NCBI GenBank assembly: GCA_947247005.1
Contig: OX365949.1
Location: 18,975,130-19,039,129 of the forward strand
DNA from: Spisula solida
Lineage: Eukaryota > Mollusca > Bivalvia > Venerida > Mactridae
Reading direction: 5' to 3'
Length of the DNA stretch: 64,000 bases
This document shows, piece after piece, positions 9,966-38,608 of this stretch (its first letter is position 1; each line of letters starts with the position of its first letter). A program made the position numbers and the translations under genes. The notes beneath the pieces are model-generated. The model saw only the letters and a list, made by a program, of their open reading frames with translations. It ran no database searches and was not told the origin of the DNA.

Positions 9966-10033
9966 CGAAACGAGACGAGACGATACCGACCGACATGTGC
10001 AAAGCAATATACCCCTCATCAAAGATAGGGGGG
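9966..10033. repeat. GAGAC microsatellite and G-run, Q1 allele
   Basis: 'CGAGACGAGACGATACC' has two GAGAC units where Q2 (24610-24640) has four plus an extra GATAC. The G-run downstream is 6 in Q1 and 13 in Q2 (24683-24695). Both are simple replication-slippage differences between the duplicated copies. Confidence 0.9.
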
Positions 10034-10679
10034 ATATTAAGTGGTTGCACGTAGTAAAATATCACTCTACATATCACTTTATTCATTTCTACAAGTACCC
10101 CTTAACAAAATATCACTACAAAACACCAAAAAAAAACTTTACACAAAATCAAAATTCTTAAGCTTCTCAAAATCTATTGTATTCTCCATGACTTCGCATA
10201 AAACGATTTCGCACAATCGAAGCACTGAAGGCCTCGGGCTATGGACGTTACTCGTTACGAATGAGCTATGCATGTGATATGTCAAGTTATACCTATTTGG
10301 CTCTCCTTTCTTCATATGCTGCTCATTCATCCAAGTATATAGTATAACTCGTCTTAATATACATTTTTACTCTATTATAACTTATAAGGCCGTTGTTAAG
10401 GGGTTATTGTGCCACAGTTTTATATACAAGGTTGTTCAAGTTGTACACCGCAGTTCACAGTAAGTCTTGGTCGTTTACATGGCCACCAATTCTACATAAA
10501 CAGTTTGAATTGCGCTCCTTGACATGCTAATTATCTATTCATTATGTCATAAGGCTTTATAAATAGGAGTATTGACAAACTTCATGCCTATGAAGCGCCA
10601 TCTTATGATGGTGATCAAATGTGCCAAGTTACTAAAAAATAATTCAAAGCATGGAGAGGTTACAGTCCGGACAAGTGTT

Positions 10680-10770
10680 TTGGGACCGACCGACGGGGGA
10701 CGGACAGACAGACGGACACACTGACTCTTATAGAGCTATATAGCCTCCTCCTATGATAGAGGGGTGTAAT
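10680..10770. repeat. ACGG/ACAG-rich simple repeat, Q1
   Basis: The string 'gaccgaccgacggggg', then units of GGAC and AGAC, then 'tagagctatatagcctcctc'. This kind of GACGGACA stretch is a frequent end of dispersed repeats in marine invertebrates. The Q2 copy is at 25325-25415. Confidence 0.7.
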
Positions 10771-11464
10771 ATTTGGAGGAGACAGTAATGGAACACCATG
10801 AGCAACGACAGAATAAAGAAACAGACAACGTCAACAAAGCGTCAAAATAATATCGTTCGTAAAACAATTGAAAATAGTATTGGTATCAAAAACTTTATAG
10901 ACATGTGGAAAAATAGCACCATATTAATGGCAAAAATATTCATGACAAAGGAAATCCCGTATGGAAAAAAAGTTGCAATGATCATTAGCTGATCGATACA
11001 AGTATTTCCCCTCTTATGTTGTTTTCAACATACATTTGATCTGTTATTATACAGCATAATAGCATATAGCACAGATCACCATGCCATTTTCTAAAATCAA
11101 AATGTCTACGCAAGAGAAGATCAGGTTCTTCGAAACCAAACAATGACTATTTAGGAGATGGTGACTATTGCAATTTTATTTCCGATAACATTAATCGTTG
11201 CTATAATCTATCATTATATGCCATAATAAAATGGGAAAGACGATTCGATGCACAATTCGATGTCAATTACGTCACATTAATTTTACACTGTGTTAGTGTG
11301 TCTAAGATGACTACGAAATACGCTGTTTATGTCGACAGTGGTGATGAATATAACGTATGTAAATAAGACGTGAAAGAAATTTCAATTAATTATAGTCAAG
11401 GGAAAGAAATGCAAAATTACATTAACTTAAACAAGAACTCAGTAAACTGTCTTTAAATCAAATA

Positions 11465-13591
11465 GGCCTTTCCGGAAACTAGGTAACCTCCCTTTGAAAT
11501 TGTCTTCCCTTAACGCATATGCGCATGCGCCAGATTAGTATCTCAACTTCCGGGGTGTCCGTATATCGATTCAATCGTTATTCAGCCATTACTCCTAGCA
11601 TTAGCGCTCCGTTATACTTGAGATAAAAGTACTTTTTGACGATGGTTTTGCTTTGCTTTTGTCGTCAGTTGAACGAACATGTAGGGAAGTGATTACATGG
11701 CCTAAAATTCTTATTGGAATAATGAAATTTCATTAAGATTTAAATATATTTCTCAGTAAAATATCTTATTCACGAGCGCTTTCAATAGTTATAAGTTGAG
11801 AAGACTATTCAATAATAATTATGATTATACAGCAATATTATTAAATATTCGTTCAAATATTATTTTCGGTAACCTTATAAAATACGAATTAATCTACAAT
11901 ATTTTATGAAGATACTCACCAATTAACTTATTTTGACAATCATCCATAACACACGTAGAAATAAACTTGCACCTATAAGTGCTAAATAAATCCACCACCA
12001 CGAAGACATATCATGGCATGCTTATTCACAATAGTGTTCGTGGTACTTAATACAAAAATTAATATTACACTAATTATGTTAGATTTAAACAATAAGTATT
12101 TTAATTAAAAGGCTATAATGAGGGAACTTTGTAGCGAAAATGAACGCACTGGTGTTTGCGTTCTGAAAATATTAAATTCCTAATTCATGTATATAGAGGA
12201 AATTAAATGACAGTCCGGTATTCTTTTAAAGTGCCCCTATTAATACCCATATTAAAACATACTTTCAAAACCAATTAAGTGTCATAAAACCCATAATCTT
12301 TATTAGTAATCAGTGGAAAAGACCCCCTGCCATGTAATTGGTCAACTACGTGTCTGACACATTGTATAATGCAACATATGTCACCGCGGTAGCTATTTAA
12401 TTGGACATATATATGCATCCCTTCTGATGTAAGATCTGTATAATATCAGGGGGTGATTAATAATAGGGTAATAAAACAGCTCTTATCCAGATGACTGTAA
12501 TTTAAAATGAGGGAGCAAAGATCTTATAAAATCCAATTATTATTTGGATGAATATATACGTCCGCGCAGACACTTGTATACATGTATCGTTTCTGGTACG
12601 TTGCGTTCGTTTAAATTCATGTCTTGTGCTTCCCGTTTGTTTTGAAGTATTGACAGTTGATTTTTTCGTTCAGTGAAATTAAATTAACTTTTAACATGCG
12701 TAGTCGCAGCACATTTTCTCAGGGAAGGGAGGGGGGCATCCTAATAATTTATTCTCAAGAAAGATCGAGGCGGGCCACCATTTGCTCAGACGGATCAAAC
12801 CAGTTTTGTGATATCAGTGGGATATCCTGATCAAATTTCAAGCCCTGCACAACTCATGTATTTATATTATCAGGACAACCAAATTCAAGTGGGTCTGAAC
12901 AACCCTCTTGAGCCGCGCATACATTAATACGTGCATTGTGTGACTCATTCGCGGGATTGGGGTATTATGCCAACACCCTATATATATATATCACACTATT
13001 GTTTTTACAATTTCGCGGGTATCTTATACGAATATGCCAACATTTTACAACCACATTGGCAATGTATATTGTACAATTTCACAAATATCATAATATAAAA
13101 CTTAACATATATTAAAGTAGAAGAACGCTGGAGAGATTGACGTTGAATAATTCAATTACTTCACTTTTAATAATTAAAAAATATATGGACAACACAAAAC
13201 ATAAAACAGATTGCTTAATTTTACCAGATACTTTCAAAGATTATTATCGTGATAAGCGAACAAACAATATCCTTCGTATGTTTTCTTTAATTTCAAATAT
13301 TTTTTGTTTACCGCCGTAGATTCTAAACTTTGTTCCGTATAGATTTAATTAATTTCGCAATATTCTAATGTAATACAGCAGTATGGGATACAAAATTAAT
13401 TTATCTAACAGAAAATACCAAAAACATAACAATAAAGAACACTTTTGTAAGCTAAATACTTAAAATAACTGCAATTTGTTCTATGTTACTATATACCTAT
13501 CTTATCAGGACACCCCGGAAGTGGAATTACTGAAAACAGGGGACGTTATCGAGAATTTACCAAGGGAGGTAACCTAGTTTCGGGAAAGGGC
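11465..13591. mobile_element. Old 2.1-kb TA-target inverted-repeat element (copy 1)
   Basis: The ends at 11465-11494 and 13562-13591 form a 30-bp inverted repeat with three mismatches, core 'GAAACTAGG' then 'ACCTCCCTT', flanked by TA at 11463-11464 and 13592-13593. A second inverted pair, 'CTTCCGGGGTGTCC', lies about 80 bases inside each end. The element straddles the Q1/R1 label boundary and is also present in copy 2, where it is split by a later insertion, so it predates the duplication. No transposase is visible. Confidence 0.7.
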
Positions 13592-14032
13592 TATACGAGT
13601 ACCGTCTAAACAAATGTTAGACGAATAAGTAAAAAGAACATTCAATATCTTTTTTAATGAATATTGCCAAGATCTAATGGTTTGTGACATGTAAGCACAT
13701 TGGATTCGGTCGGTCATCCAATTAAAAATTAACATTTTGACTTTTGCTGTGTTATATATATGGGGAATCATACAAGAAAGTATAACATTTCAGAAAAGAA
13801 CAGCTCGAGTAATTCTTGAAGGGGATTACTATACTCCTCCAAATTCAAGTTTCTAATAATACCACATCAGGAATACGCTGTTGTGTGTTGGCAGCATGCT
13901 AGATACTCGCGTTTGACGTCAGTCTCTCACGTCAGTCTTGATATACTGCATGACAGAAATACGAGTGAATTGATAAATGGAACTGATATGGCTTAATCAA
14001 TCACATGTAACTAGACGTAAAACTAGGCACTC

Positions 14033-14233
14033 ATGCCAAACAAAATCCTCACATTTATCTTCCGCACTTATCACCAGATATTATTGGACATATTGTCTGG
14101 AGTTGACAAATTGTTTGCACCATTAGTCTGCCACATTACTGTTCTAAAGAGTCTGTGCATCATTGTTCATCATGTACTGGCATGCCCCCATAATTTAGGT
14201 ATGATAGAATATATGTGCAGTTTACTGACATAA
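14033..14233 (+). other. 66-residue open frame, identical protein in R1 and R2
   Basis: Frame starting MPNKILTFIFRTYHQILLDI; the R2 copy at 32458-32658 differs by one silent base. Sequence identity of the whole block explains this, so it is not evidence for selection. No family recognised; probably chance. Confidence 0.12.
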
Positions 14234-14377
14234 GAGACGCTCGGTAAGCTTTATATATTTGAATTACTCAATGACCATCTGTAAACCATTAGCAAACCAG
14301 AATTTGTCTGAACATGACATCTGGTTTATGTGAATACAATACGCAATGGGCGTTCGGGTAATTTCAAAATGGCACAA

Positions 14378-14932
14378 CGAGAGGTGTTCAACTTATATTT
14401 GAACAAAGCGAGCATAGGATTTTGTTATTCTAACACAATAAAATCGATTTATTTCTATTGAACCATGTAAAAATGTGTATAGTAGTATATACTCTCATTT
14501 TGTATCATATTTGCATTATTTTTATATCCAAAATCAACCATCGTGTAGAGAGCGTTGTGTTTTGGTTGTTTAAAACAAATTGCCCCTAAAGAAGCATACA
14601 AAAGTGTTAGTAGATTATGAATTACCCATGTATAGAAGTCTCCTGATAAAGTATGGATATAACATAAATCTGGATAATATTGAAACGTCGATTAGAGAAT
14701 GGAATTGTAAGTTTCAGCATTTGAAAGTTTGGCCTTCAAAAATGCAAAAACCAATACCTCTATACAATAGTTGATTTTGTTCTAAGGATATAACATATAT
14801 TTTCTACAATGGTTGTTTATATCACTTGATACATTACTATACACTATTTGATAGACACAATTCGACTTCGTTGTGAAATTCATGAACATACTGGATGTTC
14901 AATTGTGTTCAAATATAAGTTGAACACCTCTC
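14378..14932. mobile_element. 555-bp mariner-type non-autonomous element (R1)
   Basis: Perfect terminal inverted repeats of 27 bp or more: 14379-14405 reads 'GAGAGGTGTTCAACTTATAT' and continues, and 14906-14932 is its exact reverse complement. A younger relative at 54476-59553 has TA on both sides, fixing the end as CGAGAGG or CAAGAGG next to TA; here the flanking TA has decayed. An internal frame (14580-14774) matches in order the piece near 58260 ('RRLEKG' to 'WPSK'), which lies just inside the right end there, so it may be the decayed end of a transposase gene. This is inferred. Confidence 0.85.
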
Positions 14933-16066
14933 ATAAAAGCGATCAAGCGATGATTCGACAACAGTTTAACCATTGTTTTCGCAATTTTAGTTGCCATTTT
15001 AAGTGCCAAAAACCAAGCATATGTACTCCAAAAATATATTTCTGCGGTACGACAATGATTGTTTTGTTAAACGTTAATTCAACATAGATATACATAGTTC
15101 CTACTCCAGTATATGCAACTGGCATTCTTATAAACGTCCCCAGTTAAACACTCAATTTTCATTAAAATTAATTAATTAATAAAGTTTATACGAAATTAAA
15201 TCAAAACAATTTCTATGCCAAAATATATAAAGTCGGACATGGAAGGCACAGGCAACTTTATCATTGATAAAGAGTAAAAAAACTATTTCATAAAATTTAT
15301 GTTATCTTAAAAATTTAAGGTGCATTTCAGCTAAAGTGCTCAGATTTTCAAGGTATCAAAAAGAAAAATTGGCTTTCGATATCTTCATAAAGTAGATACA
15401 TTCATAGAGTTAGAATTATCTCCATGCAAAATCCAAGTCCAGTCACTCACTGAGGGGCATTCATTAAAAACGACAATGCTATTCTAAACAAGAAAAAAGA
15501 TAGTGATTTAACGCCCTATGTGTTTATTTTCTTATTTACGGACGGATTTTTAAAATATTTATATCAAATTAAAGACGAATCTCTCTAGTTTCGGATTATG
15601 TAAATATATTTAAAATAACACTTGTGTTAATGAAATGTTTATTAAAAACAAACTTGACCTCAGTGACTTTGCGTTCATTTTCCCTTGTTATGAGCCTTTC
15701 TAAGATATTGTACATTTTATAAAAAGAAAATTTCAGCGTTAGCTGTCTAGCTTGATATTTGACCTGCTTTTGACCACTTTAAAAACCAATGAAATGTTTG
15801 CAAATAAATTAGGAGCAAATAGATATCAAAGCCCGTTTGGTCAGAATATGCTATACTCATTACAAAAGATACCGCGAAAAAAATACATTTCTGTTAAACA
15901 TGTGCAGTAGATACACACATATATCTTTTATTCACGTTTCTCGTGGTATTTAGTGTATTCCTTATTTTAACTGTTAAACTTTGTCCTTAAAGCCTTAATG
16001 TGACGCGGGTCAAGTATTGAGTGGATATATAAGCGTTATACCGCACATGGAATTTTAATACCGAAA

Positions 16067-16123
16067 TAAGCTTCATTGGTAGCGCGTTCGTCTACACTGA
16101 GAGGGCCATGATTTCAAAACCCA
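16067..16123 (+). repeat. tRNA-like SINE relic in R1
   Basis: 'CTTCATTGGTAGCGCGTTCG' resembles a tRNA A box and D arm, followed 35 bases on by 'GATTTCAAAACCC', a decayed B box. No acceptor pairing. The R2 copy is near 34488-34544. Confidence 0.5.
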
Positions 16124-16422
16124 TTAAAGTCACTTAAGTTTGGAATCACTATCGCTATAATTGCAGGAATCTAGACTAATAAACATACCTATATTACTAT
16201 TCTTTTTTTATTTACTGACAAACAATTTACATGTATACATATATAAATTCTACTTTGATATGTGTTTTTAATTTCAACGATATGAAATAACGCACGCATC
16301 TTCAATATAAATACGTACACGTATCTGTTATTTTAACGCTGTTTATCTTTTTAAAAGATATTTCTTGTTTTGTTTACTCTTTATTAATGATACAGTTACC
16401 TTAAGGCAACTTAACGAGAAAT

Positions 16423-16542
16423 AAACTGCCCAAGTCCCAGCTGTCAAAAAACTGAATAAACTAGTTTCAGCAATCAAAAAACTGAATGCCCTAACTAAAT
16501 AACCTAGTTGTAACAGTAAACCGATTAAAATGCTAAGAAGTG
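16423..16542 (-). repeat. Inverted fragment of the P repeat inside R1
   Basis: The reverse complement of this stretch ('ttactgttacaactaggt' to 'cagctgggacttgggcag') follows 22305-22410 of P2 in order. It is clearly diverged from the P modules, so it is an older dispersed copy. R2 has it at 34847-34965. Confidence 0.75.
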
Positions 16543-17135
16543 TGACGAGGCCATTTTATGGGAACCGTAAAATGATAATCATAAATGAAACTGGAAATTC
16601 AGCATTCATCAGATATAGCAGAATACAACAAAGCCCATTACGAAGGACGTAACAAAACAAACGCATAATACAACATCACAAAGACAGTCACAATATGACA
16701 AGGACAAATTTACCCCTTGTAAACTAGCACATTGAACTTTTTGCAGACATGTAATTACTTAACCTTTTTATACTACAGCAATATGTAAGTTCGCTACTCT
16801 CGGCATAATTGTGACACTTTTAACAATACTGTAATCTAGTGTTCTGTCAAGTGTCATTACGTATAATTCATTATTTAAACCGACATGCTACTCAATGTAT
16901 AAGCCATGCCATTGCAAGAGGTTAAAAAAACTGACATCCTTCTATTTTCTCCGTCCGTAATTATATCGAAAAACTTATAGACAAAATGCAATTTAAACCA
17001 CTTACAAATCACCCATGTGTCTATTTTCAATTATTGCAGTAAATGTTAATATTGAATATAACGCAACCAAACGAAATTGAGTTTGGCATATGTAGGCGGC
17101 ATAATGGAGACATACAAGTGAGCTTCTGATAGGTA

Positions 17136-17302
17136 ATTAATGGAGACAGGCTTCAAGGGTTGATAAAGTTGAACTGTTTTAATTCTAGCATTTATCGCTT
17201 TATTGCCATTTGATTAATGGAGACAGGCTTCGTGAGTTGATAAATGAAGTACAACTACCTCTGCTTTAATTCTAGCATCATTTATCGCTTTAATGTCATT
17301 TG
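17136..17302. repeat. Imperfect ~80-bp tandem duplication
   Basis: Two units begin 'ATTAATGGAGACAGGCTTC' at about 17136 and 17213 and both carry 'TTTAATTCTAGCATTTATCG' or its near match. The second unit has small insertions. R2 carries the same pair from about 35557, so it predates the large duplication. Confidence 0.8.
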
Positions 17303-18260
17303 AAACCGTTGAAGAGTGCCACATTCGTAAAGCTTAACCCTTACGTGCATTGTTACAGGGTTCAGTGAAATGTAAGGTGTATGCGACTGCACTATTCACA
17401 ATTCAGAACCCAGAAACATCGCGGAAACCTAATTCGCTAAGAGACACAAACTCGCTACAAACAAACCCCAGCGATAATAAACGTCATCAATAAAATACAT
17501 TTTATTGGGTGTGCACATTGAACTTCTCGGCGCAGGCAAAGATTCACAAATAAATACTTATTCCCATATCCATGAATTAAATATCAGGCTATTGTATTGT
17601 CTGATAATTACCACCAGACCGTAACTTTCGTTCTGATACGGACAAGCCATTAGTAGCCAATGTTTATGCGGTTTATAATTAAATTCTGTAAATGAAGTAC
17701 ACGTGAAAAACAAAGTGGACCTACCTACAACTCCTATTACTCATTTAATGTCCAATGAATGTGACTGCAGTTTTGTGAGGGGGTATGAAAGTGATCCCTA
17801 GTTCTAAAATGTGTACTTGTTATTAGGTGGTGCTTCAAAACAGGAAAGGATATCGTCATTTTAGCTATGGCATACTTTTATGTAGTTGACTCATCTTAAA
17901 AAATGACATCATTATCAAAGACATTAATGTACGATCGTTCATGTAAAGAAAACAACAAGTGTTTGAAGTCAAAGAATGATGCACGTATTGTGAAAATTAA
18001 AGAGCTCTGGGATGAAATAGTGAAAGAGAGGAGAAAGTAGGTGGTGAGTTAACTAAACGAAAGGGAAGCGGACAACCTTCAAACTTATCGTTCACAATCA
18101 CCAAATAAGTAAAAATATGAGTATTGTTGAGGCCAATCAACCAAGATTTAGTAAGATGCAACATGTAGAAAGATAAACATTTATAGCCCATATAGGCGTG
18201 TAATAATTTCAGATTAATTTTGTTTGTACGCATCCGTACGATAGCAGAAACCTCTTTTTA

Positions 18261-18578
18261 CTACAAATCAGCAGCAAACACCTGAGTATGTTCCACGGAA
18301 GTATTGTTATTAGACCTCATACCAAGGCCCAACAACCTAGATATAGCTATATCTTGAACGCCCTGGTGAATCAGGAGTGTTATACATAATGAACAGGTCC
18401 ATGCAGATCCAGAATTCATGACTATGGAACACCTGAGATGATGTTTGAGTTCAGCATGGAAATACTCGTATATATTTATGAACACTGAAATTCCTTGTTC
18501 ACTTTCTATGCTAATATACTGAAACATGTGATTGAAAACATGGGAGGTAACTCGGTATTGGATTAAATAATCAATCAC
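18261..18578 (-). other. 105-residue open frame, unknown, conserved in R2
   Basis: The frame begins MIDYLIQYRVTSHVFNHMFQ; the R2 counterpart is 36681-36998. I see two replacement differences and at least one silent difference between them, which suggests no strong constraint. About 100 bp upstream on the same strand is a mariner-like end ('TACAGGGTGTCCCAAAAACG'), so the frame could belong to a transposon remnant. No catalytic motif, signal peptide or domain is recognised. It may be chance. Confidence 0.25.
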
Positions 18579-18681
18579 AATCTGAATGGTTATATTTGGA
18601 ACTGTGTTCTTTCCCTTAATGTTTTGACATATTGATAATGCAATATTGATAAATGAGATTTTTTTTTAAATGTTTAACCTA

Positions 18682-18707
18682 GGTCCCCGTTTTTGGGACA
18701 CCCTGTA
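18682..18707 (-). mobile_element. Mariner-like terminal repeat, single end (R1)
   Basis: Read on the minus strand it starts 'TACAGGGTGTCCCAAAAACG', the usual look of a mariner terminus beginning at TA. I could not find the partner end within the module. The R2 copy is at 37102-37127. Confidence 0.55.
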
Positions 18708-20092
18708 CATAATAAGAAATTATTACCAAATAGGAACAAAGAGAACAGGTACAGCAACGGATAGAATGGCGCTACTTGCAGAGAAAGAATCATTCAATTC
18801 ATATGTTTGTTGAAGACTCACCAAGCTACATCAAAATCGAGACGTAGTTTTTTAATATATTTTAAGAAAAAGTACCATGCTGTGTTTGTTTGATGTTCAG
18901 TTACATATTATTCAATACCAAGACAATAAAAAGATTTATTAAACGAAGTAGTTAATCATAAACTATGAAAACCGTATAAGGAATACAAGTATGAAAACAA
19001 TATACACATGTACGACCATGATCAGATATCATTGGTGTGTTAGTAAAGTTAAATTATACACCATCATAACTATATACATATCCAAATTATGCATAAACTA
19101 GGCTGAACATATTGAAGCACTTCCAAAATCACAGCGTATAGCCGAAGTCTTAATAAATACATCCATTGTAAGGTACACAAGAGACAGAAAGCTTAATGCA
19201 CAACAAAATATTTATTTTTAAAACTCGAATCAGATTTTAGTTAAATGAAGCTTGCGGTGGGTTTGCTTTTTCGGGTGTAGCAAAAATATCATGATGATGA
19301 ATAATCGATGTACAAAACAATGACACAACGCCTGTTCGCATTCAAATAAACATAAACACATTTAACACAATATGGCCACGTTTGATATTGGATCATCTGG
19401 GGTAAAAAACTAGGTCAAATCATAGAAAAAGGTAGTAAAAAGGACAGAGGAAGGCATCACTGAACTGAAACAGCCGGGCAAAGAAAACTTAAAAAGAACA
19501 CAGACGACAATTACATGGCTCAATTCCCAACACACAAATTTATACTTTGTGTAGTCAATGCTACTGTCGATTCAAAGATATCTGTCAAAACCGCCAGAAT
19601 GTTCCATTTCTTAATAGGTAAATGTATGTATTGACCAATCAGCGCTCTTATTTTACTCATACCATCTTTGACCATAGCTCTATGTATCAAATTAGCATAG
19701 TATATTTCATTAGCGTTCTTAGCGAAGTGCGTTAAATGCATTGTTTCAGCATAAATCATTGGTGAAATTCAAGTTAAGGTTCGAATCCAGTCTGATACGC
19801 TTTTTCTTTGTTATGCTTTTTATTATATTGTTTTTCTGATGATTTATATCGACAAATTAATTTTATCATTCTTTTCTTTTCGAAAAAAGTAGCTGGCTTG
19901 GTAGATATATTATGTTTTTGTTACATTTACTAGTACATTGAATACAAAACATGATTGCAGAAATTTCAAGCTTCGTAGGATGAACACAATCCTGGTGTGC
20001 TGGAATACAAATGCGAATATATCTAGTATATTAATTGTATGTATGTAATCGCCGGAATGAGCACAAGCATTAATAAACGTAGATTACGTAAA

Positions 20093-20180
20093 TTGGGATT
20101 TGAACTCGCAGTAAATTATTTACATTTTCAAAGTAAAACTCACAAAACCATAGCTGTTAACCACTCGGTTATAGGGCAGT
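20093..20180 (-). repeat. tRNA-like relic with long variable arm (R1)
   Basis: On the minus strand 'TAACCGAGTGGTTAACAGC' looks like an A box and D arm, and 'CTGCGAGTTCAAATCCCA' like a T arm and B box. The spacing suits a tRNA with a long variable arm (Ser or Leu type). The T stem is mispaired. The R2 copy (38511-38608) keeps about 21 more bases at the 3' end. Most likely a SINE or tRNA pseudogene. Confidence 0.5.
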
Positions 20181-20384
20181 AAAAGTTTTGATCATTTAAA
20201 TGTACTAATGATGTTAGGACTTAATCCTGACACACCTGTAATAATCGATCGTGTTGAATGTTTGTTTACGCGGTTGTGACAGATAACTTTGAATCAACAG
20301 TAGTCGTCACCATAATGGCATAATCTTTCTGAAACAATAATCATCTAAACCAAAACTATGTCAATACCTAGATCAATATCAATC

Positions 20385-20546
20385 TTGGTCCATCAGGGGA
20401 CAAAAACTAGGTCACGAGTCAAATCATAGAAAAACCTTGTGTATGATATAAAGGCTGTATTTTCACTGAATTTCCATGAAAGCTGGTCTGAATCCTGTCT
20501 GGATGGAATCTAGGACAAGTTTCAATATGAGTCGCCTATTGCAAAT
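20385..20546. repeat. Dispersed bivalve-type repeat fragment (R1)
   Basis: 'CAAAAACTAGGTCACGAGTC', then 'ATCATAGAAAAACCTTGT', then 'CCATGAAAGCTGGTC' and 'TGGAATCTAGGACAAGTTTC'. From general knowledge this order of motifs is a very common dispersed and tandem repeat in bivalve genomes. A shorter piece is at about 19390-19432. The R2 copy is at 38816-38969. Confidence 0.55.
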
Positions 20547-21409
20547 TTTTAGCAAGTTCACAGCATTTACTTGAGTCTTAGTCAGACGTTGAAAATGATT
20601 AGTCAGGTCATCATAGGGGCCTGTATGCACAACTTCGCCGGTTAAGCCACCTACGACCCTTTGTACCCTCCTGTTTAAATCTATTAATGAAACAAACATC
20701 AGTTTTGAAGATTTACATAGTTATTTTGTTCTTTGAAAATGCATATTCATCCAATTTAATGTTATGCAAGATACGTTTGTGGCAGTTTCTTGAGAGAATG
20801 GGGAAATGTTTTCACAATAATAGAAATTGTTTAATTTGTCTATAGACATTAAAATATATTAACAGAAACCTGCTAGCGTGCATGTATGGGAAAAATCTGC
20901 CATGGAATACGCACATTTGGAGAAAAACACTAGTTTCAAGGGCAGATAACTCGAGATAGTTTGATGATCTAGGATTAATTGATATGTTTCTGTTTCTACT
21001 ATGTATAATGTCTTCATATACAAAGTTTGAACAAAATTCTATTATCGGTAAATTTTGGCCCACCACCTATCTCGCATATACGAAACTGCAGTGAACGCCT
21101 TTTAAGTGTAAACATGATCGACAAGAAGTGGAAATTCCAAGAAAACCAGATTTTCATGTTAGCCAAGCATAATTTGGCAGAAATGGATACATGCTTATTT
21201 GTAACAGTGGCCTTTATAGACCCAACCGACCACATGTTCAATTTGTGTCCATCATCGTGATCTTAAAATATCACGAATGATATTATGACATTGTATTCTT
21301 TCATTTTTCAACTAAACACGTACGTATTACATATAAATGAACCAGTTTAAGCGGCTTAGAAACAAGACTGAACAGGAAAAGATACCAGACTAGAATGGTT
21401 GAGTTTTAC

Positions 21410-21674
21410 GTTATAGTTAGAACATATTAAGTAAATTTTAATGATTAAAAAGGCCAGAGCGAGCGAAGCGAAGCGAGGCCTTTTAAGTCATTAAAATTTA
21501 CTTAATATGTTCTAACTAACTTTGAATATAACATTCTGCATTCTGATTGGTCGATAGAAATTAGCGCCAACGCATGACGTCAAGTCTGTTAAGAGAAAAT
21601 TTTAATGATTAAATTTTCATTTAACCGCGAAAATGCGGCGTTTTCATTGGCTCATAATGTAGGTTATATTCTAG
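21410..21674 (+). mobile_element. 265-bp hairpin-ended element (P2 copy)
   Basis: One end is a near-perfect hairpin: 40-nt arms 21416-21455 and 21477-21516 ('GTTAGAACATATTAAGTAAA' onward) around a 21-nt loop made of GAGCGAAGCGA units. The other half contains 'AATTTTAATGATTAAA' again and 'CCGCGAAAATGCGG'. The ends GTTATAG and GGTTATATTCTA are the same in four copies here (28461, 43038 and 52987 are the others). P1 has the uninterrupted site at about 3207. I see no clear target duplication. No coding capacity; class uncertain (foldback/MITE type). Confidence 0.85.
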
Positions 21675-23781
21675 AGTTAAATATAGCCATGTTATATCGG
21701 AAACAATACCGGAAACCGCTGAACACGAGATATCAATAAAGTCTTATTAAATAAAGTTATCAAGTTATTAATAAAACGGTTGTCTGTAATTTACCTGGCT
21801 TCACTGGTCTTTGTAAAGATTTGTTGTTTAATCGGTGAAATGTCGTCTTGACTTTCTTGTTATTGTGGCGGCATGTTTCTATTAGAGAAGTGTATTTCTT
21901 ACAACATTTGATATAAGTATAATTTTTTCTCTAAAATTCTAAACTAGCACAATTGAGAGAATGTGAAGCGATCATGCGGTATATCTTGCCTGCATTCCCA
22001 GTTTGAGCTAGACTGGTGCCACTTGTCTCATTTTCTACGTTATTTAGATCGAATGATCGTGGTACCAATCTAGGTTGAGCCGGTTTAGTTCTATCATGGC
22101 ATTGTCTTCGGCCATATGCTGTGCATGCGAAGAATACCAGTTGCTTGTGGAAGAAGAACTTATATTTAGTTCACTGTTAATTACCTGTTATTAAATACAT
22201 TTATGGGAACACTAAAACACTTCAGCTGAAACTATGGCATACAGCTTCTGATTAATGTTAGTTTTAAACTTTTTAGGACTTCAGAATGCTTAAACTAGGT
22301 AGTTCAGCCGTTTTACTGTTGTAACTAGGTATTTCAGCTAGGACATTCAGCTTTTGGTTTGCTGAAACTAGTTCATTAGCTATTTGACAGCTGGGACTTG
22401 GGCAGTTTATTTTCTTGTTCGGTTATATGTTGGGAATTGAGTCTTGTTATTGTGGTATGTGATGTTTTTATGTTTTTTGTGCTCTGCTGGTTAAGTTGAG
22501 TGCTGCCTTCCCAGTCCGACTTTATTATTGTTTTGGCGTTCTGGCTTTATAGCAGCGCCAATGTCAAAGAGGAGTGTCTTCTCGTAAATTAAACCGAGTG
22601 ATAGCTCATATGATGTATAATAATAATTATGTATGTAACGCCAGTAGAAAAATAAATTAATTTATAAACAAAAATCAACATTACTTTTGACAACATTCAT
22701 GTACATCATGAGGGTATCACACGTCAGAGAAACGTCCATGTTTTTCTTCGCAACAAATAGTCGCATGTACAAATAAAATTAGTTGCTTATATACAAGCGA
22801 AAATGCCGAACGAATAGAAGAATATTCGTATGTGAAATTATACACTTGATTAAACTTGATTTCTATCCAAGCCATGTAATTAATTTCATTCTCGTAAACC
22901 TCATGGTTAAACACAACATTCAACAAATATACTAGCAGTGAAGTTTTAAATTGTTTTGATGTCATCTGGCAATAACTATTCCTTAACATAACAAAATTTG
23001 TCTAGCACATAATTTATTACCAACATGTCTCAACAATGGTGTATGTAATACATCCTGCTTTGCCGGAGTCGATGCCCGATAGACAATCTGCTTATTGTGA
23101 GTTAGTGTGGCATCTATCAATAATGTTTAAAAGGGAAACGAAAGACACTTCTCGACAAAACAAGAAGAGTTGCTTACAATTAACAGAGAAATGTGATCAT
23201 ACTAATGACGTCATCTCCAACGTCTCCAAACGTTCTAAATATAAATAGTGGTTCAATTTGTTCGTGTACTTCTCTGAATAGAAGATTAGTTTTCTCTTAC
23301 CTTCGTGTCGTTTTAAATGTTTTTGTTAAACAACGCCGGGGAATACATTAGGTCGACATTTGATCACAAGCAACATTTATTGGAGGCAACGGAAACCCAT
23401 TAATAACATTTAGAAAGCTTGACATATAAGGTGCTAATACTCTGGATTATATGTCATTATACACCGCCAGACGTATCCCAGAAGGTCAGTGTGTCTCTAG
23501 GAATTAATATAACATTGTCGACAACACCAGACTAGGTCAGGGGCCCACTTTCTCTTTGACACTTCTGTCAGATATGTCACCGGAAGTTTTGTCAATTTAC
23601 GGCAGCTCTCTAATAAGGAGATAACGAAGTAGATTATTCTCTTAAATAAATGGCGTTACTCGCGCCTTGTGACTAAGAAGCATACGCTTATGGAGTACCA
23701 TTACGTCAATAATGCAAGACAACATCAAGTACGAAGAGGCAAGTGAACATTTTTCAGATAAGTAATAGTATGTGTGAGATC

Positions 23782-23940: not shown

Positions 23941-26900
23941 GTTATTATAAAGATTGATGAACTGCCGGAAAAGCGAGGGTTATATATATCCACTGCACTA
24001 ACATGCCACAATTTTCTATAGGCCGTGTCCGATGATGTGTGTTAAATTGGCATAAAGTGAATGGCTTAAACGCTGGCACAGAATGCAGCGTCTTTTCATT
24101 ACAGATCACCAGGAGAAATATGTTTGACATATAAATACCGGGATCTTCCACAATCACAACAATATTTATCCATATCGTCATAATGTAAGCAATAACGAGG
24201 TTTGAAAATGTATTTGGCAGACATTTGACAGTCAATTGATGTTATCCGCAACAATAAACCCATAGGCATAAACATATACATGGTTATGATAAAATACGAC
24301 GCACATTTAGTGTATATTCAATTTAGAATATGAGATTTGCAGACGGAAACGAGCGATATTCAGATATCTGATATTCATAATACTTTCCAGATCATCATGA
24401 TGGATTGGATGCAAGTACAATCAAGACAAAGCAACCTGCGATTATACATGATAAACATTTGTGTTTTGTGGTGGCCGTAAAAGGCATAAATGTACTACAT
24501 ACAGTCAGTCTTGCTATTCATCTTAACCGATTGCTGGTGTGGTGCGAGCAGGTCAATGCCGTTAAATTTCGGTATGTAACGTTTTCATGCTTTTTTTGTG
24601 TTCGACGAAACGAGACGAGACGAGACGAGACGATACGATACCGACCGACATGTGCAAAGCAATATACCCCTCATCAAAGATAGGGGGGGGGGGGGATATT
24701 AAGTGGTTGCACGTAGTAAAATATCACTCTACATATCACTTTATTCATTTCTACAAGTACCCCTTAACAAAATATCACTACAAAACACCAAAAAAAAACT
24801 TTACACTAAATCAAAATTCTTAAGCTTCTCAAAATCTATTGTATTCTCCATGACTTCGCATAAAACGATTTCGCTCAATCGAAGCATCGACGGCCTCGGG
24901 CTATGGACGTTACTCGTTACGAATGAGCCATGCATGTGATATGTCAAGTTATACCTATTTGGCTCTCCTTTCTTCATATGCTGCTCATTCATCCAAGTAT
25001 ATAGTATAACTCGTCTTAATATACATTTTTACTCTATTATAACTTATAAGGCCGTTGTTAAGGGTTTATTGTGCCACAGTCTTATATACAAGGTTGTTCA
25101 AGTTGTACACCGCAGTTCACAGTAAGTCTTGGTCGTTTACATGGCCACCAATTCTACATAAACAGTTTGAATTGCGCTCCTTGACATGCTTATTATCTAT
25201 TCATTATGTCATAAGGCTTTATAAATACGAGTATTGACAAACTTCATGCCTATGAAGCGCCATCTTATGATGGTGATCAAATGTGCCAAGTTACTAAAAA
25301 ATCATTCAAAGCATGGAGAGGTTACAGTCCGGACGAGTGTTTTGGGACCGACCGACGGGGGCGGACAGACAGACGGACACACTGACTCTTATAGAGCTAT
25401 ATAGCCTCCTCCTATGATAGAGGGTGTAATATTTGGAGGAGACAGTAATGGAACACCATGAGCAACGACAGAATAAAGAAACAGACAAAGTCAACAGAGC
25501 GTTAAAATAATATCGTTCGTAAAACAATTGAAAATAGTATTGGTATCAAAAACTTTATAGACATGTGGAAAAATAGCACCATATTAATGGCAAAAATATT
25601 CATGACAAAGGAAATCCCGTATGGAAAAAAAGTTGCAATGATCATTAGCTGATCGATACAAGTATTTCCCCTCTTATGTTGTTTTCATCATACATTTGAT
25701 CTGTTATTATACAGCATAATAGCATATAGCACAGATCACCATGCCATTTTCTAAAATCAAAATATCTACGCAAGAGAAGATCAGGTTCTTCGAAACCAAA
25801 CAATGACTATTTAGGAGATGGTGACTATTGCAATTTCATTCCGATAACATTAATCGTTGCTATAATCTATCATTATATGCCATAATAAAATGGGAAAGAC
25901 GATTCGATGCACAATTCGATGTCAATTACGTCACATTAATTTTACACTGTGTTAGTGTGTCTAAGATGACTACGAAATACGCTGTTTATGTCGACAGTGG
26001 TGATGAATATAACGTATGTAAATAAGACGTGAAAGAAACTTCAATTAATTATAGTCAAGGGAAAGAAATGCAAAATTACATTAACTTAAACAAGAACTCA
26101 GTAAACTGTCTTTAAATCAAATAGGCCTTTCCGGAAACTAGGTAACCTCCCTTTGAAATTGTCTTCCCTTAACGCCTATGCGCATGCGCCAGATTAATAT
26201 CTCAACTTCCGGGTCGTCCGTATATCAATGCAATTGTTATTCAGCCATTACTCCTAGCATTAGCGCTCCGTTATACTTGAGATAAAAGTACTTTTTGACG
26301 ATGGTTTGCTTTGCTTTTGTCGTCAGTTGAACGAACATGTAGGGAAGTGACTACATGGCCTAAAATTCTTATTGGGATAATGAAATTTCATTAAGATTTA
26401 AATATATTTCTCAGTAAAATATCTTATTCACGAGCGCTTTCAATATTTATAAGTTGAGAAGACTATTCAATAATAATTATGATTATACAGCAATATTATT
26501 AAATATTCGTTTAAATATTATTTTCGGTAACCTTATAAAATACGAATTAATCTACAATATTTTTATGAAGATACTCACCAATTAACTTATTTTGACAATC
26601 ATCCATAACACACGTAGAAATAAACTTGCACCTATAAGTGCTAAATAAATCCACCACCTCGAAGACATATCATGGCATGCTTATTCACAATAGTGTTCTT
26701 GGTACTAAATACAAAAATTAATATTACACTAATTATGTTAGATTTAAACAATAAGTATTTTAATTAAAAGGCTATAATGAGGGAAATTTGTAGCGAAAAT
26801 GAACGCACTGGTGTTTGCGTTCTGAAAATATTAAATTCCTAATTCATGTATATAGAGAAAATTAAATGACAGTCCGGTATTCGTTTAAAGTGCCCCTATT

Positions 26901-27752
26901 AATACCCATATTAAAACATATTTTCAAAAACAATTAAGTGTCATAAAACCCATAATCTTTATTAGTAATCAGTGGAAAAGACCCCCTGCCATGTAATTGG
27001 TCAACTACGTGTCTGGCACATTGTATAATGCAACATATGTCACCGCGGTGGCTATTTAATTGGACATATATATGCATCCCTTCTGATGTAAGATCTGTAT
27101 AATATCATATAATAAAACAGCTCTTATCCAGATGACTGTAATTTAAAATGAGGGAGCAAAGATCTTATAAAATCCAATTATTTTTTGGATGAATATATAC
27201 GTCCGCGCAGACACTTGTATACATGTATCGTTTCTGGTACGTTGCGTTCGTTTAAATTCATGTCTTGTGCTTCCCGTTTGTTTTGAAGTATTGACAGTTG
27301 ATTTTTTCGTTCAGTGAAATTAAATTAACTTTTAAAATGCGTAGTCGAAGCACATTTTCTCAGGGAAGGGAGGGGGGGGGGCATCCTAATAATTTATTCT
27401 CAAGAAAGATCGAGTCGGGCCACCATTTGCTCAGACGGATCAAACCAGTTTTGTGATATCAGTGGGATATCCTGATCAAATTTCAAGCCCTGCACAACTC
27501 ATGTATTTATATTATCAGGACAACCAAATTCAAGTGGGTCTGAACAACCCTCTTGAGCCGCGCATACATTAATACGTGCATTGTGTGACTCATTCGCGGG
27601 ATTGGGGTATTATGCCAACACCCTATATATATATCACACTATTGTTTTTACAATTTCGCGGGTATCTTATACGAATATGCCAACATTTTACAACCACATT
27701 GGCAATGTATATTGTACAATTTCACAAATATCATAATATAAAACTTAACATA
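23941..27752. repeat. Q2 module (segmental duplication)
   Basis: Second copy of 9302-13108, with very few substitutions. It joins P2 directly at 23940/23941, the empty site of the 2754-bp element of copy 1, and is cut at 27753 by the 3780-bp element. Another slippage difference is the G-run near 27371-27380, longer than its partner near 12731. No gene is supported. Confidence 0.9.
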
Positions 27753-28460
27753 TGTGACGCGCCATGAGACTTTGGGTCCAAATGCGGCAAATGACGTAAC
27801 GTCGTAAACAAAGAAATGACGTCGCCGTATAATCTCAGCATTTTGATTACTCCAACACGTACAGTCTCGACATTGCGCATATGTGGTAGAGTTCAATACA
27901 TCATTTGTGATAAGACAATAAATATTAATTATAGAATCTATAAGTATGTAATGCAAACGAGCAATACAAAATATTTATAGCGTAAATTCTGAATAAAATC
28001 TAAGATACTAAATAAAATCTAAAAGCAATGCGGATTGGATGGATTATCGTAAGAGGCGTGGCGGATACTCAACGATATTCGCATACTGTGTCTTTATTAA
28101 TAATGTTAATACTCGGCTGTTATTTCAAAACGAACATAAATATTAACCGAAGATACAACGATCGAGTCACTTTTTAGCTTATCACCGAGCGGCATTATCC
28201 TCATATACATCAATATTATTGTAGATCTACAGCCATTGTTGATTAAATCCAGTAAACTTTTTGGACTCTTACGTTCTGTAATAATTGGATATATTCCATT
28301 CTAAGAAATAGATCTAGAATATATTCCTGAAAATACTCCGGTACATGAATCGCGACACACGCGTGTAGGCATTGCTCAATACACAAAATATCTAGGTCAA
28401 CATATTTTAACTAATGTCTGTGTGTCGAATCCTGTGACAGAAATATAAAATTATTTATCA

Positions 28461-28720
28461 TTAGAATATAACCTACATTATGAGCCAATGAAAACGCCGC
28501 ATTTTCGCGGTTAAATGAAAATTTAATCATTAAAATTTTCTCTTAACAGACTTGACGTCTTGCGTTGGCGCTAATTTCTATCGCCCAATCAGAATGCAGA
28601 ATGTTATATTCTAAGTTAGTTAGAACATATTAAGTAAATTTTAATGACTAAAAAGGCATCGCTTCGCTCGCTCCGCCCTTTTTAATCATTAAAATTTACT
28701 TAATATGTTCTAACTATAAC
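28461..28720 (-). mobile_element. Hairpin-ended element, minus-strand copy
   Basis: Reverse complement of the family at 21410, from 'TTAGAATATAACC' to 'TTCTAACTATAAC'. The hairpin loop differs ('atcgcttcgctcgctcc'), while arms are conserved. It is nested in the 3780-bp element. Confidence 0.85.
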
Positions 28721-29056
28721 TTCAAGTAATTAAAAAAATAAATGTTGAAAGACTCCACCTTTAAAAGAATAACAATTTTATTAGATAGTTTGTTGGGCAA
28801 AAAACAAACAACGGCCGTATACTGATATCATGATGACTATCAAATAAAAGTTATGTCATCGATGTCCAAGAAACATCTATACTAAATCTATTTGTCACAG
28901 AACGGGGCGTGTATTTTCTGTGAAATGATTACGTCACAGTTCCTTTATAAACAGATGTTGATTTAAAATAATGTTACCTTATTTATTCATTGATGGCAAC
29001 AAGTCTACTTTCAAATTCGAGAAATTACATTCTTTAAAATAAAATGCGCACTTATA

Positions 29057-29120
29057 AAAACAAGGACAATATTTTCGTCTCTGGGGTCATAAAAAACAAG
29101 GACAATATTTTCGTCTCTAG
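29057..29120. repeat. Short direct repeat
   Basis: 'AACAAGGACAATATTTTCGT' followed by 'CTCT' occurs twice about 37 bp apart inside the 3780-bp element. Absent elsewhere in the window. Confidence 0.8.
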
Positions 29121-29761
29121 TCTAGAGTTATGGAGTGGTTTTAAACTTATGAAATGTTTACCATAAAATCAGGTATGTTAGATTCTTTGATTAATTGTCT
29201 GTGTGGGGAAAATAATATTTGTCAAAATAAGTATAATCAGCGATGTGTCACATCCTGGTGCAACAATACAAGTTGGAAATTTAAGAAATAAGTACATTGA
29301 TTCGTATTGGACTTTTTGTTGGGGGTTTGTGGGGTCGGGGTTAGTGTAGGCTATTAAATTTTAAAAATCGTAAAAACCAGTTCATCTCTAGTAAGGTGGG
29401 AAACACTGAAAAGCGTTTCCAGTGAACTGGTTGGAAACTCAGAGGTAGTATCGCGTGTATTATAGGTACTATGTACACCGAGCACGTTAAAGAACCAATG
29501 AGTCTATTCAGAATGAGCTAGGAAAGCCTATCCGGATTGCTTGTACCACACAAACTTACTCTCTTTCCTCGGACGTCAGGGATAAAAACTGAATGGCTAC
29601 GCACTATGATTGTCTCAGTCAAACGCAAAAAATATGTGTAGGCCCTATGGTGCATCTAACAAGATAGCTTTACCCAGTTCCACAGGCACAAAGTTCACTG
29701 CTGATTAAACATAAATAAGTTACACATAAAGGATAATCACAACATTACAACATCACAATCA

Positions 29762-30066
29762 TGCACCAGTCAATTGAAACCACGGCCCAACCCCCGGGGA
29801 GGGTTGATATAGCGGGGGAACAGTCCCGTGATTGTACTTTCCGATGTCCCCGCACCGCCCTGTGAGTGGGTGCATTTGTTAGCTTTTGTTTTGCATAGCG
29901 GGAAAGTATAGCCATAACTATACCCGTGAGGTATAGGGTGGGGGCAATTTGCGGAAGTTTTAACGTCTGTATGGCCGTGTGGGGGCAGGGATTTTACCAG
30001 GGTTTGCGAAAGTGAATAATTCCGCCATTCCCCGGGGTAGGGGCGTGGTTTCAATTGACTGGTGCA
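29762..30066. mobile_element. 305-bp GC-rich MITE with 23-bp inverted repeats
   Basis: The ends are perfect inverted repeats: 29762-29784 begins 'TGCACCAGTCAATTGAAACC' and 30044-30066 is its complement, with further pairing through 'CCCCGGGGA'. It is much richer in G and C than its surroundings. A 94-codon open frame on the minus strand (29770-30054) runs from one terminal repeat to the other, but its composition (Pro/Gly/His rich) suggests chance in GC-rich DNA. The target duplication is ambiguous because the flanks continue the palindrome (AT or TA). Confidence 0.82.
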
Positions 30067-31058
30067 TAATTATATCCATGAGCGTTGTATCAGATAATTA
30101 GGAAAATATTCCGTACAAAAATACTTGCCAGTCCTCAAGACACCCAACATATACGTGTACGTCACAGGTAGTTGTATCGTTCTGTGCCCTTACTAAACAA
30201 ATACTTCGTTGCGTTAGCACCCGTTTTATAAATTTATTAACGTAACAGGTTTGCTGAAGAAAGTTTTCCAACGCTAGCCCTGTTATAAACGATTAACATC
30301 CGTCCTAGAGCTAAGGTCACGGCGATCCCAACCTTACGAATACACTGCAGGGATTTCGTAAACTCGACATGCTCTATTTGTTGTCCAAGGTATAGAAATT
30401 CGAATGTTACTATAAAATACGAGCTTGTGTGGACATCATTCTTTTACACCGAGTGCATTATGAATATTATCGTAGATATGTGCACCTAAACAAATGGATA
30501 ATTGATATGCCTCTAAGAGCTGTATGACCTGAGAGGGATTGAACCCATACATTCGGAAACACCGTCACAAGATTCGCCTGGAACTCCACGCTACCAAGGA
30601 TAAATTTGCACAGACAGTGCTATTAATAACGGGTGGTTGTCCCTTACCACTTGCGGATAGATCCAGACTGGAAAATATCCACCCAATAAAATGTCTCATA
30701 TGAGCAGCTATAGCACGTTACTACTGACGATAAAATTGTTAAAATCCGTAAATTTACCACACACAAGCAATGCAGTACCCAACTTATTTTATCAGGCTAG
30801 CAACGTACCCCGTCATTGACCGAAGTCCCCGACGCTACCTACTTACCGATGATAGGTAATGAAACTTGTCAACACAATTTTAACACACGCCTTTGGAATC
30901 AGCATTGTCTAGTAAATATAGCAAATGGTGGACCAAATAAAACAGAGAACACGTTGTTTATTTTATGATTCTGCACGAGCTAGATCTACATGATTGTGTA
31001 TAAATGCATTAGTATTTGAAGTTAAAGGCATATCGTGTTTTTTCATGTTTTTTTAGCT

Positions 31059-31196
31059 GTTACCATGGCAACCAAATTAAAAAATGTATGATTATGATGA
31101 ATATATTACGTGGACACAAATAAAAAAAATCTATAAAAAAAATCTATAATTTTTTTTCATATTTTGTAAAACATTTTATATCGTTGCCATGGTAAC
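31059..31196. repeat. Inverted pair of RFX-like palindromes
   Basis: GTTACCATGGCAAC at 31059-31072 and GTTGCCATGGTAAC at 31183-31196 are exact reverse complements and each fits the symmetric X-box consensus bound by RFX factors. The 110 bp between them is A/T-rich. They may be ends of a small hairpin repeat; regulatory use is not shown. Confidence 0.6.
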
Positions 31197-32802
31197 ATAG
31201 TTTTTAAAAACGCCCTCCAAAAACTTTCTTTATCAAAATTCATGTGAAATGATTATATCACAGTATCATTTTCCAAGGAATTAGGCAAGGGTCTAAATTG
31301 ACCCTCCGTGGCCCAAGATAGTCTTTGCAACTCAGTGTGCAGAATTGCTAACGTCAAACCGCAGTTGGAATGGAGATATTGCATATGTTTGTGACTGCAT
31401 AGCAACGTAACTAGACCAGATACAACAATTAAATTTAATATTTGTTATAAGGAATATGTAAACATCATTTTGCAGTAAAAAAATCATTTTCGAAAAATTC
31501 CTCATTTGGACCCAAAATCTCATGGCCAGTCACATATATCAAAGTAGGAGAACGCTGGAGAGATTGACGTTGGATAATTTAATTACTTCACTTTTAATAA
31601 TTAAAACATATATGGACAACACAAAACATAAAACAGATTGCTTAATTTTACCAGATACTTTCAAAGATTATTATCGTGATAAGCGAACAAACAATATCCT
31701 TCGTATGTTTTCTTTAATTTCAAATATTTTTTTGTTTACCGCCGTAGATTCTAAACTTTGTTCCGTATAGATTTAATTAATTTCGCAATATTCTAATGTA
31801 ATACAGCAGTATGGGATACAACATTAATTTATCTAACAGAAAATACCAAAAACATAACAAAAAAGAACACTTTTGTAAGCTAAATACTTAAAATAACTGC
31901 AATTTGTTCTATGTTACTATATATCTTATCAGGACACCCCGGAAGTAAAATTACTGAAAACAGGGGACGTTATCGAGGATTTACCAAGGGAGGTAACCTA
32001 GTTTCGGGAATGGGCTATACGAGTACCGTCTAAACAAATGTTAGACGAATAAGTGAAAAGAACACTCAATATCTTTTTTAATGAATATTGCCAAGATCTA
32101 ATGGTTTGTGACATGTAAGCACATTGGATTCGGTCGGTCATCCAATTAAAAATTAACATTTTGACTTTTGCTGTGTTATATATATGGGGAATCATACAAG
32201 AAATGTATAACATTTCAGAAAAGAACAGCTCGAGTAATTCTTGAAGGGGATTACTATACTCCTCCAAATTCAAGTTTCTAATAATACCACATCAGGAATA
32301 CGCTGTTGTGTGTTGGCAGCATGCTAGATACTCGCGTTTGACGCCAGTCTCTCACGTCAGTCTTGATATACTGCATGACAGAAATACGAGTGAATTGATA
32401 AATGGAACTGATATGGCTTAATCAATCACATGTAACTAGACGTAAAACTAGGCACTCATGCCAAACAAAATCCTCACATTTATCTTCCGCACTTATCACC
32501 AGATATTATTGGACATATTGTCTGGAGTTGACAAATTGTTTGCACCATTAGTCTGCCACATTACTGTTCTAAAGAGTCTGTGCATCATTGTTCATCACGT
32601 ACTGGCATGCCCCCATAATTTAGGTATGATAGAATATATGTGCAGTTTACTGACATAAAAGACGATCGGTAAGCTTTATATATTTGAATTACTCTATGAC
32701 CATCTGTAAACCATTAGCAAACCAGAATTTGTCTGAACATGACATCTGGTTTATGTGAATACAATACGCAATGGGCGTTCGGGTAATTTCAAAATGGCAC
32801 AA

Positions 32803-33357
32803 CGAGAGGTGTTCAACTTATATTTGAACAAAACGAGCATAGGATTTTGTTATTCTAACACAATAAAATCGATTTATTTCTATTGAACCATGTAAAAATG
32901 TGTATAGTAGTATATAGTCTCATTTTGTATCATATTTGCATTATTTTTATATCCAAAATCAACCATCGTGTAGAGAGCGTTGTGTTTTGGTTGTTTAAAA
33001 CAAATTGCCCCTAAAGAAGCATACAAAAGTGTTAGTAGATTATGAATTACCCATGTACAGAAGTCTCCTGATAAAGTATGGATATAACATTAATCTGGAT
33101 AATATTGAAACGTCGATTAGAGAATGGAATTGTAAGTTTCAGCATTTGAAAGTTTGGCCTTCAAAAATGCAAAAACCAATACCTCTATACAATAGTTGAT
33201 TTTGTTCTAAGGATATAACATATATTTTCTACAATGGTTGTTTATATCACTTGATACATTACTATACACTATTTGATAGACACAATTCGACTTCGTTGTG
33301 AAATTCATGAACATACTGGATGTTCAATTGTGTTCAAATATAAGTTGAACACCTCTC
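32803..33357. mobile_element. 555-bp mariner-type non-autonomous element (R2)
   Basis: Duplicate of 14378-14932 with the same perfect terminal inverted repeats and very few differences, so it was carried along by the segmental duplication and did not transpose separately. Confidence 0.85.
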
Positions 33358-34846
33358 ATAAAAGCGATCAAGCGATGATTCGACAACAGTTTAACCATTG
33401 TTTTCGCAATTTTAGTTGCCATTTTAAGTGCCAAAAACCAAGCATATGTACTCCAAAAATATATTTCTGCGGTACGACAATGATTGTTTTGTTAAACGTT
33501 AATTCAACATAGATATACATAGTTCCTACTCCAGTATATGCAACTGGCATTCTTATAAACGTCCCCAGTTAAACACTCAATTTTCATTAAAATTAGTTAA
33601 TTAATAAAGTTTATACGAAATTAAATCAAAACAATTTCTATGCCAAAATATATAAAGTCGGACATGGAAGGTACAGGCAACTTTATCATTGATAAAGAGT
33701 AAAAAAACTATTTCATAAAATTTATGTTATCTTAAAAATTTAAGGTGCATTTCAGCTAAAGTGGTCAGATTTTCAAGGTATCAAAAAGAAAAATTGACTT
33801 TCGATATCTTCATAAAGTAATAACATTCATAGAGTTAGAATTATCTCCATGCAAAATCCAAGTCCAGTCACCCACTGAGGGGCTTCATTAAAAACGACAA
33901 TGCTATTCTAAACAAGAAAAAAGATAGTGATTTAACGCCCTATGTGTTTATTTTCTTATTTACGGACGGATTTTTAAAATATTTATATCAAATTAAAGAC
34001 GAATCTCTCTAGTTTCGGATTATGTAAATATATTTAAAATAACACTTGTTTTAATGACATGTTTATTAAAAACAAACTTGACCTCAGTGACTTTGCGTTC
34101 AATTTCCCTTGTTATGAGCCTTTCTAAGATATTGAACATTTTATAAAAAGAAAATTTCAGCGTTAGCTGTCTAGCTTGATATTTGACCTGCTTTTGACCA
34201 CTTTAAAAACCAATGAAATGTTTGCAAATAAATTAGGAGCAAATAGATATCAAAGCCCGTTTGGTCAGAATATGCTATACTCATTACAAAAGATACCGCG
34301 AAAAAAATACATTTCTGTTAAACATGTGCAGTAGATACACACATATATCTTTTATTCACGTTTCTCGTGGTATTTAGTGTATTCCTTATTTTAACTGTTA
34401 AACTTTGTCCTTAAAGCCTTAATGTGACGCGGGTCAAGTATTGAGTGGATATATAAGCGTTATACCGCACATGGAATTTTAATACCGAAATAAGCTTCAT
34501 TGGTAGCGCGTTCGTCTACACTGAGAGGGCCATGATTTCAAAACCCATTAAAGTCACTTAAGTTTGGAATCACTATCGCTATAATTGCAGGAATCTAGAC
34601 TAATAAACATACCTATATTACTATTCTTTTTTTATTTACTGACAAACAATTTACATGTATACATATATAAATTCTACTTTGATATGTGTTTTTAATTTCA
34701 ACGATATGAAATAACGCACGCATCTTCAATATAAATACGTACACGTATCTGTTATTTTAACGCTGTTTATCTTTTTAAAAGATCTTTCTTGTTTTGTTTA
34801 CTCTTTATTAATGATACAGTTACCTTAAGGCAACTTAACGAGAAAT

Positions 34847-34965
34847 AAACTGCCCAAGTCCCAGCTGTCGAAAAAATTGAATAAACTAGTTTCAGCAATC
34901 AAAAAACTGAATGCCCTAACTAAATAACCTAGTTGTAACAGTAAACCGATTAAAATGCTAAGAAG
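34847..34965 (-). repeat. Inverted fragment of the P repeat inside R2
   Basis: Same as 16423-16542; diverged from the P modules, inherited by duplication. Confidence 0.72.
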
Positions 34966-38510: not shown

Positions 38511-38608
38511 TAGGCATCGTTGGGATTTGAACTCGCAGTAAATTGTTTACATTTTCAAAGTAAGACTCACTAAACCATAGCTGTTAACCACTCGGCTATA
38601 GGGCAGTT
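38511..38608 (-). repeat. tRNA-like relic with long variable arm (R2)
   Basis: Minus strand 'CTATAGCCGAGTGGTTAACA' (A box) and 'GCGAGTTCAAATCCCAACG' (B box), with 'ATGCC' downstream that could pair weakly with 'GCCCTA' at the other end. Better preserved than the R1 copy at 20093, but the T stem is still mispaired. Confidence 0.52.

Follow-up and report, generated by a model that had tools for sequence, protein, structure and literature searches.

Three direct copies of a dispersed repeat in Spisula solida, the middle one a hybrid of the outer two, probably through unequal crossing-over

The window, a stretch of 64,000 nucleotides of Spisula solida DNA, contains three copies of a repeat (P), of which the middle one is a hybrid that switches from one outer copy to the other at aligned positions; the sequence pairs that a duplication would have created are less diverged than the outer copies P1 and P3 are from each other. 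The arrangement probably arose by a real unequal exchange between direct P repeats flanking two further sequences, Q and R, a reading to which the sequence comparisons lead us to give a probability of roughly 0.58. Self-BLAST of the window gave the order P1, Q1, R1, P2, Q2, R2, P3, all in the same orientation, with one directly oriented P copy at each end and one between the Q-R units. The duplicated unit is about 18 kb. The features are as follows.

1..6547 (+): P1, the first P copy, truncated by the window's left edge (self-BLAST, borders by reading)
611-3201 (+): segment of about 2.5 kb in P1 only, net of short shared pieces; no clear inverted ends
3746-4407 (+): 662-bp segment in P1 only; inverted ends match at 30/32 bases, TA duplication by eye
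5758-6126 (+): 369-bp segment in P1 only; no clear inverted ends
6548..9304 (+): DNA-transposon-like segment at the P/Q border of P1, absent from P2, which has an empty site there
9305..13110 (+): Q1, 97% identical to 23945-27753 (self-BLAST); 60/3776 substitutions
13105..20735 (+): R1 (self-BLAST); 18640-20507 differs from R2 by 4.22%, the portion before it by 57/5525 (1.0%)
20736-23940 (same direction as P1 and P3): P2, the whole middle copy (self-BLAST)
20736..23108 (+): P3-like left part of P2, 0.85% from P3 and 10.6% from P1; 206 P3-like and 7 P1-like sites
21410..21683 (+): hairpin insert of P2 and P3, lacking in P1; related, in inverted orientation, to 28452-28720 and 52984-53254
22923..23140 (no strand): range of the switch, within 2 log-likelihood units; best at 23107/23110
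23109..23769 (+): P1-like right part of P2, 2.48% from P1 and 6.08% from P3
23770..23945 (+): P end block in P2, with all three P copies 10-13% apart; tRNA A-box-like string at 23787
23945..27753 (+): Q2 (self-BLAST)
27754..31531 (+): 3.78-kb insert with inverted ends (34/38 bases match, framing 27750-31537), in unit 2 only; empty site in unit 1
31532..39175 (+): R2 (self-BLAST)
39176..45401 (+): P3, interrupted by a 3.18-kb insert at 39520-42702 (self-BLAST)

Similarity between P2 and P3 in self-BLAST continues leftward into R1 and R2 without a break. Because R1-P2 and R2-P3 align unbroken, the left border of P is given by the window edge only. The start at 20736 given in an earlier note on this DNA is thus set by that edge; P2 is P3-like from there. 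At the right end, the P3 match stops at 45401 (equivalent to 23902 in P2). Directly abutting it, at 45400-45845, is an inverted copy of inner P with parts deleted (related to 22475-22840 at 80% and to 21677-21744 at 91%). R also contains short sequences related to inner P (22309-22412 and 22428-22511; 81-86%) in inverted orientation, at 16419-16523 and 19449-19532 and in their unit-2 counterparts.

The hybrid nature of P2 was revealed by a three-way alignment of P1, P2 and P3, made after large inserts had been cut out, in which 265 sites favoured either P2=P3 or P2=P1. A single change of nearest relative fitted best between 23107 and 23110, with 206 P3-like and 7 P1-like sites to its left and 17 and 35, respectively, to its right. 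The gain in log-likelihood was 52.2, compared with at most 13.2 in 5000 shuffles (0/5000 as strong), and switch positions within 2 log-likelihood units were scattered from 22923 to 23140. From 20736 to 23108 divergence was 217/2041 (10.63%) for P1-P2, 20/2346 (0.85%) for P2-P3 and 213/2014 (10.58%) for P1-P3. From 23109 to 23769 the corresponding values were 16/646 (2.48%), 34/559 (6.08%) and 36/544 (6.62%). The near identity of P2 to P3 on the left, up to about 23.11 kb, and its greater closeness to P1 on the right, both asserted in the earlier note, are therefore borne out. Rather than uniform P2-P1 and P2-P3 distances with no change near 23.13 kb, the nearest relative of P2 changes at 23107/23110.

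Indel runs, counted as separate markers and excluding the large segments cut out beforehand, followed the same division. Left of the switch 21 grouped P2 with P3, three grouped P1 with P2 and in one P2 was the odd copy, while to the right seven grouped P1 with P2 and four P2 with P3. In the P end block there were one and two runs joining P2 to P3 and to P1, respectively. The block ctggattatatgtcattata, described previously as present in P1 and P2 only, is found exactly at 5689 (P1) and 23442 (P2) and P3 is gapped there, so among P copies the description holds, but the block also occurs inverted, with one mismatch, at 62279-62298, outside P. An inverted, 78% identical copy of the right part of P (23373-23642) is located at 62090-62369.

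Discordant sites were concentrated within 200 bp either side of the switch (3/7 on the left, P = 0.016; 6/9 on the right up to 23769, P = 0.026), values that come from small numbers and from a switch position set with the same data. Such clustering is what the conversion zone of a crossover would leave. Of the present tracts in which P1 and P3 agree over 30 bp or more, none crosses the switch; the closest measure 58 bp (at 22850), 31 bp (23201) and 55 bp (23307). A switch within a long identical tract is usual for non-allelic homologous recombination without defining it, and such a tract may have been lost here through later changes. A second switch on the right had no significant support, as 629/5000 shuffles were as strong. 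In a Viterbi analysis, one of three settings returned to a P3-like state at 23846 and the other two did not. Sites in the P end block were mixed (eight P3-like, nine P1-like and six with P2 odd).

Because of their inverted ends and empty sites, four of the six large size differences between the copies look like ordinary DNA transposon insertions, each in one copy only. Inverted ends were counted in the top-listed framings, which include a few flanking bases, except in the 2757-bp P1 segment, where the second-listed framing (6548-9301) gave 36/38 with a TA duplication. The 3.78-kb segment of unit 2 (34/38 in the top framing) and the 3.18-kb segment of P3 (29/32, framing 39512-42711, with an empty site in P2) have no duplication in that framing, and by eye one of 4-6 bp that is ambiguous in both. 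No transposase was identified in the transposon-like segments. Tandem repeats of 162 bp occupy 40795-41439 within the 3.18-kb insert. The 2.5-kb and 662-bp segments are in P1 alone, as is the 369-bp segment, and of the P copies only P2 and P3 carry the hairpin insert (21410-21683); these points of the earlier note stand.

It had been proposed that 6126-6547 of P1 is again more diverged from P2, requiring a later conversion or insertion. This applies to the last 175-215 bp or so: of the 100-column bins comparing P1 with P2, the pair beginning at 6142 and 6234 is about 3% diverged, and the next pair, from 6333 and 6432, about 10%. What is needed is largely insertion of the transposon-like segments, plus real extra divergence over about 175-215 bp. 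P2 23770-23944 differs from P1 at 18/171 positions (10.5%), and all three P comparisons give 10-13%. The tRNA A-box-like string at 23787 is an exact match in P2 and has two mismatches in P1. A-box-like motifs are familiar from tRNA-derived SINEs. Neither ARAGORN nor Rfam at its gathering scores found a tRNA or other RNA gene in P. When E-values as high as 1 were admitted, Rfam gave two matches in 20000-30000, both below gathering: MIR7993 over the P2 hairpin (47.9 bits; gathering score 100) and mir-2489 at 27517-27612 (23.1 bits). P2 matched nothing in a phage collection. The hairpin-forming repeat is present at 21410-21683, 28452-28720, 43038-43311 and 52984-53254, the inverted pairs among these being 94.5-96.7% alike (self-BLAST).

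We recognised no gene in the duplicated DNA and ascribe no function to it; Pfam scans took in 11/80 frames there (at least 65 amino acids, starting by 45401) and gave no domain in the P-Q-R part. There is no stop-to-stop frame of at least 150 amino acids in 1-45401. A Pfam search of 10 chosen frames gave a single zf-RVT match, below cutoff, at 60308-60700 on the reverse strand, and 10 further P-Q-R frames gave no match. At 56422-56976 there were four protein matches (best 53% identity), two of them listing PF00078; frames in 55113-61077 resemble reverse-transcriptase remains. A 13-bp tandem repeat extends from 63488 to 64000, the end of the window.

The pairs expected to date from the event are all younger than the split of P1 and P3, as a single later event requires. 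Divergence is 0.85% for the left parts of P2 and P3, 1.6% for Q1 and Q2 (60/3776), 1.8% for R1 and R2 (136/7545) and 2.48% for the right parts of P2 and P1, compared with 10.6% (left) and 6.6% (right) between P1 and P3. Over 23945-24949 the alignment that continues from P1 and P2 has 20/983 differences (2.03%). These ages are unequal: the left P2/P3 pair differs from the right P2/P1 pair (P = 0.0019) and from Q (P = 0.015), and the right P2/P1 pair does not differ clearly from Q (P = 0.14). Divergence of P1 from P3 is also unlike on the two sides of the switch (P = 0.005). Differences between R1 and R2 are overdispersed (index 3.46, P = 8e-10), and still so in the portion before 18.6 kb (1.64, P = 0.03). 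R1 18640-20507 differs from R2 at 77/1825 positions (4.22%), while the remaining track of R and the left part of P2 has 79/8066 (0.98%), a contrast that 0/300 shuffles reached. The pair ages are not uniform, so the units would be from different haplotypes or have been converted later. Haplotype exchange, later conversion and the joining of haplotypes in assembly would each produce such unevenness. An exchange between sister chromatids followed by a uniform clock is not claimed, since the pair ages differ (P = 0.0019) and R is overdispersed.

In the proposed origin, the ancestor would have been P1-Q-R-P3, its two direct P repeats diverged by about 10%. Pairing would have taken place between P1 on one chromatid or homologue and P3 on another, and an exchange near the present 23.1 kb would have given P1-Q-R-[P3-left/P1-right]-Q-R-P3. 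Later insertions, and perhaps small conversions, would account for the remainder. A middle P with a left part like the right repeat and a right part like the left repeat is the order expected of the duplication product. The exchange may have been between homologues with different haplotypes and not between sister chromatids, because the two units diverge unevenly, by about 1% except in a 1.8-kb block at 4.2%, and are further distinguished by several insertions. Divergence of about 10% impedes homologous exchange in many systems, which counts against exchange here. The fuller version, in which homologues exchanged through repeats about 10% diverged, two alleles were fixed side by side and a zone of patchy conversion some 300 bp long (22965-23258) was preserved at the crossover, is offered tentatively and is on balance doubtful. 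If true, it would mean permanent heterozygosity of an 18-kb segment.

Unequal crossing-over, as the earlier note interpreted the locus, accords with the number of copies, their order, the hybrid and the pair ages, but the ages are uneven and a haplotype join gives the same picture. In such a join, two haplotypes of one P-Q-R-P locus would have been placed end to end, with the assembler crossing from P3 to P1 inside P and the hybrid a product of software. The patchy divergence of the units (1.6-1.8%) and the insertions found in single units resemble allelic differences, and differences this large exist, mean heterozygosity in the Mediterranean mussel being 1.73% in the available text of PMC7653742. 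In the three vertebrates covered in the portion of PMC9516828 available, false duplications accounted for 4-16% of the earlier assemblies, most of them being diverged haplotypes. However, the window has no N, so the join must run through sequence overlap, and the left parts of P1 and P3 differ by 10.6%, with no more than 58 consecutive identical bases in the alignment, where accurate long reads, if used, would hardly have been joined. We regard an assembly artefact as unlikely but as a serious contender.

Gene conversion is improbable: an older tandem duplication would have given three P copies, with P2 made mosaic from P3 (left) or P1 (right), and although the unequal pair ages, the discordant sites near the switch, the divergent P end block and the 4.2% R block amount to patchiness of that sort, the P3-like part of P2 runs on into the R1/R2 similarity and the P1-like part into that of Q1/Q2, all at 0.85-2.5%, and conversion would need to have no outer boundary on either side, save for the 4.2% R block and the P end block.

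Unequal exchange between the P repeats would make this locus a readable case of dispersed repeats duplicating the intervening DNA, with the exchange point placed within about 220 bp. The locus also illustrates how such a duplication could be mimicked when two haplotypes are assembled together. The mechanism is a textbook one and nothing here exceeds the known kind.

Two diverged versions of one locus appearing as separate regions, as in the false haplotype duplications outlined in the accessible part of PMC9516828, are a likeness to the present units; the difference is that the join here would be gapless and sit inside a repeat about 10% diverged. According to the excerpt of PMC3744419, duplications by non-allelic homologous recombination (NAHR) between Ac elements should carry three repeats, two of them terminal and the third in between, and this holds for P. 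In the unequal-crossover model of PMC4232551 (Figure 1B legend), the intervening DNA is duplicated when noncontiguous direct repeats exchange, as would have happened to Q-R between its flanking repeats. The CUP1 arrays of that paper are, in the part available, ascribed to non-homologous recombination. The Drosophila Bar duplication is attributed, in the passages available from PMC13322080, to unequal crossing-over between two roo elements; it spans 203.5 kb, contains genes and has a visible effect. As at Bar, a segment between two homologous dispersed repeats is tandemly duplicated and one repeat between the copies marks the site of recombination. Unlike at Bar, the unit is about 18 kb, with no gene recognised in a limited look and copies 1-2% apart, and the P repeats are about 10% apart.
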